This document shows positions 43,631 through 47,134 of a stretch of DNA of 64,000 nucleotides, one piece after another. Origin of the DNA: Vallitaleaceae bacterium 9-2. GTDB lineage: Bacteria > Bacillota > Clostridia > Lachnospirales > Vallitaleaceae. Under the pieces are notes generated by a model. It ran no database searches. It saw only the letters and a program-made list of their open reading frames with translations, and was not told the DNA's origin. The stretch lies in the NCBI GenBank assembly GCA_038396585.1, contig CP121691.1, positions 2,976,001 to 3,040,000 of the forward strand, given 5' to 3'. The translations under genes and the position numbers were made by a program. Position 1 is the stretch's first letter. Every line of letters begins with the position of its first letter.

Positions 43631-43700
43631 AAAATTAATCGATATTAGCATTTTTTTATGGTATGATATAAAAGCTATATTTATATATTAGGAGATGCCT

Positions 43701-44111
43701 ATGAATTTTACAATTATCCATCAGGAAAAAAAACTACCCTCTTTTTATTCTAATGCCATCAAAGAATATCACAAACGCCTGCAGCGCTACTGCAAAATCC
43801 AACTGATTTCGTGTTCTTCTGATGCCGCTATTGCCAAAAAAATGGCTGCATCTGCCTATATCATCGGTATATCCGTGGATACTTCCACCTATACCTCCGT
43901 TGATTTTGCTCACTACTTATCCCAACTTGGAATTAGCGGGCACTCTCGCCTCACCCTTATTATTAATCCCTCCGATGCTATCTTAAACCAGTGTAACGCC
44001 CATATCGCACTCTCGGCGTTAGTTAATGAACCTGGTGTTATCCTCACCCTTTTATTTGAACAAATCTATCGAGCATATAGAATCAACTTAAACCAAGCTT
44101 ATCACAAGTAA
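43701..44111 (+). CDS. Divergent RlmH-like protein with lost SAM loop but intact C-terminal tail
   Basis: A 136-residue protein clearly related to RlmH. The N-terminal SFYSNAIKEYHKRLQRYCKI matches RlmH's KYL..AI.EY.KRLSRYCK, and the end LLFEQIYRAYRINLNQAYHK matches the conserved RlmH tail (EQIYRAFRI...PYHK). About 25 residues after the first helix are missing compared with RlmH (usual length about 159). The SAM-binding VIGGSLG loop is replaced by LIINPSDA, and FPHQLMR by NEPGVIL, so it is probably not a methyltransferase by itself. AGGAG supports the ATG at 43701. It is convergent with rlmH, overlapping it by ten bases. Confidence 0.8.
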   Translation: MNFTIIHQEKKLPSFYSNAIKEYHKRLQRYCKIQLISCSSDAAIAKKMAASAYIIGISVDTSTYTSVDFAHYLSQLGISGHSRLTLIINPSDAILNQCNAHIALSALVNEPGVILTLLFEQIYRAYRINLNQAYHK

Positions 44112-44560
44112 TCTCTTATTTCCGCTATTTTTTGAACAAGAATCAAGCGCATCAATTGATGCGGAAACGTCATCTTTGAAAAAGAAATCGCTGTATTGGA
44201 GCGTTTTAACACCGCTTCACTGAGTCCCAATGACCCGCCAATAACAAAGCAAATTCTGTCTTTATTGGTTTGACCGGCTTTTTTTATAACTTTTATAAAA
44301 GCATCTGTTGTCACTTCTTTTCCTAATATCTCTAAGGTAATAACATACATATCGTCTTTGATCACACGTAACAGCTTTTCACCCTCATGGTCTTTGACCT
44401 GTTCTTCCATTGCAACGGATAGATTTTCCGGTGCCTTTTCATCATCCATCTGAATAATGGATACGGGTATCGTCTTTTTAATCTCTCGTATATAATGTTC
44501 AATCCCAGTCACCAGGTATTTTTCCTTGATTTTGCCTACACATACAATTACTATTTCCAC
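44102..44560 (-). CDS. rlmH: RlmH 23S rRNA pseudouridine-1915 methyltransferase, C-terminal tail missing
   Basis: A 152-residue SPOUT methyltransferase family member. Normal RlmH features are present: VIVCVGKIKEKYLVTGIEHY at the start, DDEKAPENLS, EGEKLLRVIKDDMYVITLEILGK, the SAM-binding knot FVIGGSLGLSEAVLKRS, and FSKMTFPHQLMRLIL. After LILV the protein ends QKIAEIRDYL, without the conserved YRA-x-x-I...PYHK tail that contributes to the RlmH active site. Other frames on this strand do not encode the tail, so this is not a simple frameshift. The start is GTG with AGAGG upstream. The convergent gene carries a good tail, suggesting a heterodimer. Confidence 0.85.
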   Translation of the reverse strand: MEIVIVCVGKIKEKYLVTGIEHYIREIKKTIPVSIIQMDDEKAPENLSVAMEEQVKDHEGEKLLRVIKDDMYVITLEILGKEVTTDAFIKVIKKAGQTNKDRICFVIGGSLGLSEAVLKRSNTAISFSKMTFPHQLMRLILVQKIAEIRDYL

Positions 44561-44588
44561 ACAAACCTCTTTTCACTTGCTTGTTTAA

Positions 44589-45982: not shown

Positions 45983-47134
45983 ATGAAAATTAACTGGAAT
46001 CGAAAATATAATACTGTCGCTGTCTACGTTATTCTTGTTTTTTTAATTTGCTATGGCATTTATAAAGTCACCAATAGTTGGGATCAAACCAACACTGCTT
46101 TTAGTGTTATTCTTAAAACACTGTCACCGTTTATCTATGCATTAACCATCGCCTATTTTTTGGACCCTCTTGTTCAAAGAATTGAATTCACCTTTTTTAA
46201 AAAAATAAAAAGCGAGAAAATCCAACGTGGTCTTTCCATTTTTTCAGCTTATATTGTTGTTATCAGTTCCATTGTTATTCTCCTTTCTTTTATCGTACCG
46301 CAACTTATCTCAAGTGTCCAGGAAATCGCAAAGCTTCCCGGTATTTATCTACCAATGATTGATAAGTTTTTAAGTCAAGATACGCTACCCATCTTTGATA
46401 CAGATTATTATATCGATATGACTTTTATCAACCGCTATTTCAACGATAACATAAAAGAAACTATTGCCTCGCTTTCAAATATGGTACAAAACTTTGCCCC
46501 AAAAATACTTACCTATCTCTCAAGTTTTGCGTCAGCGCTTATGAACATCCTTCTTGGGTTTATCATCGCTATCTATCTCTTGTTAACTAAGGAATCCGGA
46601 CTACGTACAGCAAGAAAAGTTGTTCTGGCTATTTTCCCTGCAAAGCACGCCATTAACCTGATCAACCTTGGAAAAGAAAGTAATGAGATCTTTATCAACT
46701 TTATTATTGGAAAACTTTTAGATTCTTTGATTATCGGTATCATCGCTTTTGTGGTTTTAGTTATCTTTAACTTTCAATATGCGCTACTACTTAGTGTCAT
46801 CATTGGCGTAACGAATATTATTCCATATTTTGGACCTTTTATCGGCGGTATAATCGGTTTTATCTTATTGTTATTCATCAATCCGGTTCAAGCAATTTGG
46901 TTCATGGTTTTTGTTCTGATTTTACAACAGTTTGACGGTAATATTCTAGGTCCAAAGATTTTAGGGAACTCTACAGGTTTATCTCCTTTTTGGGTTATTT
47001 TTGCAATTATCGTCTTTGGAAAATTCTTCGGATTCGTCGGAATGTTTATCGGTGTTCCCATTGTTGCCGTTCTAAAAAATATCATCACACGACAAGTTGA
47101 TCGACTATATGATCAACGAATGAAAACATTATAA
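45983..47134 (+). CDS. AI-2E family transporter
   Basis: A 383-residue membrane protein of the AI-2 exporter (TqsA/YdiK) family, with about eight helices: two at the N-terminus, a long soluble segment of about residues 90-190, and a C-terminal group. Typical blocks are FGPFIGGIIGFILLLF, FDGNILGPKILGNSTGLSPFWVIFAIIVFGKFFGFVGMFIGVPIVAVLKNI. Some relatives are Na+/H+ antiporters, so the cargo is uncertain. AAGGGAATGTGAA precedes the ATG. It is a single gene, convergent with the C39-lipoprotein gene. Confidence 0.88.
   Translation: MKINWNRKYNTVAVYVILVFLICYGIYKVTNSWDQTNTAFSVILKTLSPFIYALTIAYFLDPLVQRIEFTFFKKIKSEKIQRGLSIFSAYIVVISSIVILLSFIVPQLISSVQEIAKLPGIYLPMIDKFLSQDTLPIFDTDYYIDMTFINRYFNDNIKETIASLSNMVQNFAPKILTYLSSFASALMNILLGFIIAIYLLLTKESGLRTARKVVLAIFPAKHAINLINLGKESNEIFINFIIGKLLDSLIIGIIAFVVLVIFNFQYALLLSVIIGVTNIIPYFGPFIGGIIGFILLLFINPVQAIWFMVFVLILQQFDGNILGPKILGNSTGLSPFWVIFAIIVFGKFFGFVGMFIGVPIVAVLKNIITRQVDRLYDQRMKTL

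Follow-up and report, generated by a model that had tools for sequence, protein, structure and literature searches.

The closest described counterpart of the proteins considered here is RlmH (also YbeA or OrfX; E. coli 5TWJ, S. aureus 4FAK, B. subtilis 1to0), a clear homodimer encoded by one gene, in which the active site is shared across the chains and only one site is believed to act. According to the available text of Koh et al. 2017 (PMC5430550), the active site of E. coli RlmH combines the SAM pocket of one monomer with the tail of the other, in agreement with the original prediction for the present locus, which had described a site built from both chains with the tail contributing; SAM is bound with a KD1 of 5.6 µM and, at a second site, with a value of about mM, and activity is undetectable in the Y152F, H153F, R154A and E138A/Q variants. 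The same text divides the RNA-site residues between the chains, K11, K42 and R43 being assigned to the SAM-side monomer (A), and R25, R26, R142 and R154 to the tail-side monomer (B).

Islands at rlmH are already known as well, and the available parts of PMC6222049 and PMC10061031 describe SCCmec, the Enterococcus cassette chromosome (ECC) and SCC-like islands with large serine recombinases, the second ends of the SCC-like islands having been located through their agreement with the final ~12 bp of rlmH (PMC10061031). Since the repeats that flank SCC and ECC in these accounts include the last rlmH codons, rlmH presumably stays whole there. Staphylococcal CI-ccrDE islands in rimL are reported, in the accessible part of PMC10581047, to truncate their target and to carry a homologue that 'may complement' it. 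For the trypanosomatid prozymes (AdoMetDC/prozyme and deoxyhypusine synthase/dead paralogue), the accessible accounts report activity only, or far higher activity, with the dead paralogue, and a 2007 SPOUT survey, in the portion available, considered that another SPOUT family might, in yeast, have an inactive partner in a heterodimer. In the available portions of the open-access PMC literature, neither a heterodimeric RlmH nor a tail-supplying rlmH paralogue was found, nor was a tail supplied in trans by an rlmH-targeting island.

The locus analyzed here lies in a 64,000-nucleotide stretch of the genome of Vallitaleaceae bacterium 9-2 (the window), where the ORF coordinates and Pfam matches confirm what had been proposed, namely two convergent RlmH-family genes that overlap by ten bases at their 3′ ends (Table 1). 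The open frame of gene B begins at 43695, and the start assigned to it at 43701 is also the most likely one, as it follows the AGGAG after a six-base spacer; gene A initiates at a GTG at 44560. Within the overlap, the Tyr-His codons of B (TATCAC) are the antisense of the TGA stop of A (44104-44102).

Table 1. Features of the convergent gene pair, in positions of the window
Feature	Position	Strand	Basis
Gene B, 136-aa SAM-loop-less RlmH paralogue (putative tail donor)	43701..44111	+	Pfam, alignment, AF2 model
Gene A, 152-aa tail-less RlmH (putative SAM-site donor)	44102..44560	-	Pfam, NCBIfam, alignment, AF2 model
Overlap of A and B 3′ ends, 10 bases	44102..44111	.	ORF coordinates
AGGAG, ribosome-binding-like site of gene B	43690..43694	+	by eye
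AAGAGG, ribosome-binding-like site upstream of the gene A GTG start	44566..44571	-	by eye

Both proteins match Pfam SPOUT_MTase (PF02590) above its cut-off, A reaching 139.1 bits and covering profile positions 1-140 of 154, which means that the tail is missing from A, and B with 77.3 bits over positions 1-154, the tail included. The NCBIfam RlmH equivalog NF000985 (cut-off 172) is passed by A (177.8) and failed by B (74.3), so that a tail-less rlmH like that of the window can be mis-annotated as complete. The motifs are distributed as the original prediction had outlined, with the SAM pocket and no tail in A and the reverse in B: A retains GGSLGLS, FPHQLMR, the GKxKE motif and K42, is without Y152-H153-R154, and has, in the alignment by eye, Q at E138 and E at R142, and B retains the E22-Y23-K25-R26 helix and the EQIYRAYRI...AYHK tail and is devoid of the GGSLG loop, the FPHQ motif and the K42/E56 segment, being shorter in the alignment by 19 residues between β2 and helix 2 and by 4 at the GGSLG loop. 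The search of the 3.81-Mb single-contig genome with PF02590 found no RlmH-family gene besides A and B, and thus no second complete rlmH. Both truncated forms and the 10-base overlap recur in one genome of the same species (G084) and one of the same genus (G001), and these identical ends rule out the frameshift or sequencing error in the tail region that had been considered for the pair; the 10-base 3′ overlap is also found in G355 and in Thermoanaerobacter wiegelii. Compared motif by motif, neither A nor B alone has every RlmH feature, and the pair together does. A and B are thus like RlmH in fold and composite-site logic, A having the SAM pocket motifs in common with it and B the tail and α1 motifs, but they differ from the one-gene homodimer in being two genes with one role each and one possible composite site.

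The distribution of conserved residues was analyzed in an alignment of 151 full-length RlmH, 27 A and 28 B proteins and E. coli RlmH, with the near-duplicates G084 A/B and G085 B omitted. Full-length rows were picked by a filter for the GG loop, PH, E/S-Q/S-x-Y/F-R and the YH tail, a selection that guarantees perfect scores for them at these columns. Full-length RlmH has 50 conserved columns in this alignment, of which A alone keeps 27, B alone 14, both keep 8 and neither keeps 1; the A-only columns include G9, I74, G103, G104, G107, T126, P128, H129 and R133, and the B-only columns are, in E. coli numbering, 19, E22, Y23, R25, R26, 30, 81, 139, 141, R142, 146, Y152, H153 and R154. As A and B were told apart by the tail and the SAM loop, the losses of these elements are definitional, as for Y152 and H153 in A (0/27). 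The C-terminal Y-H-K/R tail is present in 28/28 B, and G103, G107 and H129 in 27/27 A; in B, H129 is absent (0/28), and G104 and G107 are scarce (under 20%, even with the residue A counted as similar). E22, R25, R26, R142 and Y141, in turn, played no part in choosing the A rows, and the retained fractions of the first four are 0.30, 0.44, 0.59 and 0.41 among A vs 1.00 among B (similar residues counted), Y141 also being lost in A. At K42, 24/27 A have K or R, and most B have lost the residue; basic residues are lacking from the full-length rows at E. coli K11 and R43, two columns that are hence uninformative here. The conserved residues are partitioned in keeping with what is published on the roles of the two E. 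coli RlmH monomers. The complementary losses originally proposed hold for the 27 A-only and 14 B-only columns, but the split of roles is not absolute, since E138, catalytic in E. coli, is retained by 23/27 A, the A of the window, with its Q, being an exception.

The co-occurrence of both forms was scored from the PF02590 matches of 59 related genomes, the window's included, of which 52 were scorable (6 had no match, and G048 was dropped as a contig-edge fragment). The association that the original prediction had proposed to look for in relatives was found, with B present in 10/10 genomes with a tail-less RlmH and in 0/42 with a full-length RlmH (Fisher 6e-11, a test that ignores kinship); G002, from the window's genus, has one full-length rlmH only. 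A survey of 393 genomes of the class with a B profile returned at least nine further genomes with B-length matches, and a tail-less A is present in 8 of these nine among the matches listed; for the ninth, G546, no other RlmH was found among the matches listed. Of 393 genomes of the order, tails were examined in 25, which had been picked for a low best score or for having at least two matches. Several candidate pairs were dropped: one full gene cut by contig ends (G312, G103), two full copies and a scrap (G121), a full copy and a 21-residue scrap (G124), a broken copy (G127), and two full-length copies 3 kb apart on one strand (G045:C1:4540042-4540515 and 4543160-4543633), one of whose matches runs over a TAA stop.

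Pooled over all searches, at least 28 genomes have A, at least 30 have B and 27 have both, so that A is accompanied by B in 27/28 of the genomes collected and B by A in 27/30. A tail-less RlmH without its partner, which had been named as contrary evidence, is thus absent from 27 of the 28 A genomes and occurs in one, G130 (92% complete), where a divergent tail-less copy is present and no B was found even at E 10. No A was found beside B in the fragmented assemblies G085 and G546, the B of G546 sitting at a contig end and the congeners of G085 (G056 and G093) carrying the pair, and Paenibacillus alkaliterrae combines B with a full-length RlmH. The arrangement of the 27 pairs is variable: 10 are adjacent and convergent (window, G084, G001, G003, G007, G023, G264, G400, G355 and T. 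wiegelii Rt8.B1, NC_015958), 4 are adjacent on one strand (G464, G695, G529, G637), 3 lie on one strand 13.6-14.9 kb apart (G340, G474, G601), 4 are otherwise on one contig (G008, G030, G056, G429) and 6 are on different contigs (G012, G015, G093, G140, G497 and Youngiibacter fragilis, G403). In 10/27 pairs, therefore, A and B are far apart or on other contigs, and their joint presence without linkage argues for a joint function. On phages, plasmids and viral contigs no B was recognized among the matches listed, which span 438-480 nt (about full-length RlmH, B having about 400), save two partial Sinorhizobium matches of 303 nt.

Both A and B are, judging from substitution ratios, under purifying selection: over 10 genome pairs, dN/dS was measurable in 4 cases for A, with values of 0.04-0.15, and in 6 for B, with values of 0.09-0.29, the remainder being saturated, several dS values lying near saturation and the 0.29 of B resting on four changes. 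The open reading frames are intact in all 27 pairs. AF2 single-chain models (pLDDT 92.8 for A and 93.9 for B) place both predicted chains in the RlmH fold, the closest entries being 1vh0_A for A (Z 25.4, 1.2 Å, 152 aligned; RlmH 4fak also at Z 25) and 1to0_D for B (Z 20.2, 1.5 Å, 134 aligned; 1to0, 1vh0 and 4fak at Z 20.2-19.7). The top six fold rows are all of the RlmH family (Z 25.4-21.4 for A and 20.2-18.1 for B), and the best non-RlmH rows, from the next SPOUT enzymes, reach Z 11.7 for A and 10.2 for B. In the trees, which are short and weakly resolved, one branch (SH-aLRT 99) splits 30 B rows from 29 full-length rows, a grouping possibly helped by shared losses, and the A rows are dispersed among the full-length rows, with 8 changes on a weakly supported tree of which the starred branches force just one. 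Monophyly of A, a hypothesis named after the tree was seen, is weakly rejected by the AU test (p 0.033), and a single clade of the three A proteins that occur with cassettes (G340, G474, G601) is not rejected (p 0.12).

These three cassettes offer a view of how a tail may be lost. In G340, on one contig, A is intact to ...KEP and then meets a TGA inside GTGATTTACCGAATACATGACTC; next come a 705-aa serine recombinase and genes for type I R-M, then a tyrosine recombinase and also a ParB/RNase H protein. B stands 14.9 kb on, with no other listed frame between it and the far end; past B there is an inverted end motif, after which come the orphan codons of the tail that A has lost (GAGCCATATCATAAGTAA). 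Both ends of this cassette of ~15.6 kb are visible. G601, from another family, has a cassette of ~15.9 kb with 85-90% DNA identity to that of G340 over about 12 kb in pieces and a recombinase 92% identical to the one in G340; its left and right ends are the same as there, the right one again with the orphan tail. G474, from a third family, shares the left end and has a B closely similar to theirs; its right end is related, its cargo differs, one stretch is masked, and neither a recombinase nor an orphan tail after the right end was seen. In all three genomes the cassette end interrupts the last rlmH codons and removes Tyr-His-Lys, the rlmH frame is not regenerated with a tail as A stops at the cassette-supplied TGA, and B lies about 14-15 kb off; G340 and G601 have orphan YHK codons at the far end. 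Among the three genomes, identity is 88-93% for the B proteins (dS 0.24-0.33) and 56-61% for the A proteins (saturated dS), which indicates that B moved with the cassette, A being resident, and points to horizontal spread of the cassette. As read from these loci, the cassette strips the tail from rlmH and brings a protein bearing that tail.

The layout of the SCC/ECC type (insertion at the rlmH 3′ end, two ends, a large serine recombinase) is complete in G340 and G601 and represented by the end motifs in G474. SCCmec, ECC and the SCC-like islands, as far as the accessible accounts go, share with the G340-type cassettes the rlmH 3′ end as target, large serine recombinases, R-M cargo and inverted end repeats; presumably unlike SCC/ECC, the cassette end of G340, G474 and G601 leaves rlmH without Tyr-His-Lys and brings B, and the recombinase, in G340 as in G601, is a single protein (704/705 aa; Resolvase+Recombinase+Zn-ribbon), possibly a further difference. 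The CI-ccrDE islands, in what is available of their description, likewise break the target and bring a homologue, but their cargo is another enzyme homologue (70% nt identity) and not a half-active heterodimerizing partner such as B would be. Between B and the right end of the G340 cassette (L115:17142-17376) lie degenerate ~29-nt repeats with a GTGCCAAAAA core, which could, at a guess, be iterons or recombinase-binding sites. In P. alkaliterrae, a recombinase-like frame (27% identity) is found about 2.4 kb from the full-length rlmH (L248) and, on another contig, B stands, by eye, beside a type I restriction-like gene (L249); both loci may belong to a cassette, or to what is left of one, in a host from the Bacilli.

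Taken together, A and B are very probably the subunits of a heterodimeric 23S rRNA (pseudouridine-1915) N3-methyltransferase. Sequences, residue partition, co-occurrence, selection and predicted single-chain folds are what was observed, and from them we infer a physical A–B dimer, its activity and its substrate. In such a dimer there would be one composite site only, in which A would bind SAM and give the K42-side RNA contacts, and B would give the α1 RNA contacts (R25, R26), R142 and the catalytic Tyr-His-Lys tail; as A–A dimers would be without tails and B–B dimers without SAM pockets, both should be inactive, and each gene would be required for m3ψ1915. The trypanosomatid prozymes, as far as the available sources describe them, resemble the proposed pair in that a catalytically dead paralogue enables activity, but they are eukaryotic, act by relief of autoinhibition or allostery and not as halves of one composite site, and are not mobile.

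The obligate heterodimer is the best explanation of the pair, although the same data could be read in other ways. A might be an active homodimeric RlmH that needs no tail, and B a pseudo-enzyme of separate function, RNA-binding or regulatory, with no part in completing the active site; the passing NCBIfam score of the window's A (177.8 vs 172), E138 in 23/27 A and, on the side of B, its presence beside a full-length RlmH in P. alkaliterrae would fit this reading, but we consider it improbable, given that all three E. coli tail mutations tested abolish detectable activity in the accessible text of PMC5430550, that R26, E22, Y141 and R142 are eroded in A and all kept in B, an erosion that makes sense only if another chain supplies that side, and that co-occurrence is 10/10 vs 0/42. 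Alternatively, the A–B heterodimer may form and act on a nucleotide or substrate other than ψ1915, as the lack of the K42 segment in B and the divergence of the sequences might suggest; this is about as improbable, as the genome searched has no other RlmH, equivalents of K42, R25, R26, R142 and R154 are present across both chains, and the closest folds are RlmH entries. That A and B are decaying duplicates, that is, pseudogenes of a lost rlmH, can hardly be credited: essential parts are indeed missing from each, the delta-rlmH E. coli strain is viable in the available text of PMC5430550, and 28/393 genomes of the order are without an RlmH match among the matches listed, but dN/dS is 0.04-0.29 where measurable, 14 columns persist in almost every one of the 28 B and 27 in almost every one of the 27 A, and the frames are open in all 27 pairs.

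The heterodimer reading of the original prediction is thus well supported computationally by the residue partition, the near-perfect co-occurrence, which extends to unlinked pairs, and the purifying selection. Its explanation by subfunctionalization is incomplete as an account of origin, since B is one separate lineage and a cassette end removes the tail in three genomes. The pair probably originated when a cassette inserted into the rlmH 3′ end and its end supplied a stop codon, so that the tail was lost and cassette-borne B replaced it in trans; afterwards the cassette would have been lost, A and B becoming resident genes, and A would then have shed its other tail-side residues. The cassette is seen in other genomes, and for the pair of the window we infer the same origin, as the window holds no cassette trace: neither an orphan Tyr-His-Lys-stop beyond that of B itself, nor the GAATACATGACTC end motif, nor a recombinase similar to that of the cassette was found in it, and the sole recombinase match in its genome is distant (29% identity) and 2.6 Mb off in contig coordinates. 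Adjacent or unlinked pairs, that of the window included, would be later, domesticated states. The evidence is evenly poised on the most general form of this scenario, in which rlmH-targeting cassettes, on integrating, split the enzyme by ending rlmH just before Tyr-His-Lys and carry the half-subunit B that restores one composite A–B site, and in which B was domesticated repeatedly and the remainder lost, so that on several occasions in Clostridia, the lineage of the window among them, RlmH changed from a homodimer to a heterodimer. If it holds, loss of B, though not precise excision, would abolish methylation and so help to retain the cassette.

In many Clostridia, then, RlmH appears to be split into two half-dead proteins that should work only when paired, and the cassette making the split is a stronger surprise than the heterodimer. 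A natural split in which each chain keeps its own half would give evolutionary support to the asymmetry of RlmH, and an A–B heterodimer would make single-residue roles testable free of interference from the other site. It would also show a mobile element that breaks its target gene and is yet harmless, the missing half being supplied in trans, and would be a visible route from a homodimer to an obligate heterodimer.

Some further observations concern the neighbourhood and distribution of these genes. In family f5, which also includes G140, with a pair, and G130, with the divergent tail-less copy, many genomes (e.g. G024, G058, G077, G087) are without an RlmH match among the matches listed. The full-length rlmH of G002 (L032/L114) groups with another genus of the family, apart from the A of the window, and none of four neighbouring window genes lies within about 3 kb of it, which together would be compatible with a locus replacement. 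Transposase/TnpB-like frames were noticed by eye near B in T. wiegelii (L129:803-2019) and beside B in G474 (L253). In G012 and G008, from another genus of the window's family (L092, L096), B directly adjoins a homologue of the membrane-transporter-like gene that is found in the window at 45983-47134, 1.4 kb beyond gene A, and this position suggests local rearrangement between states.
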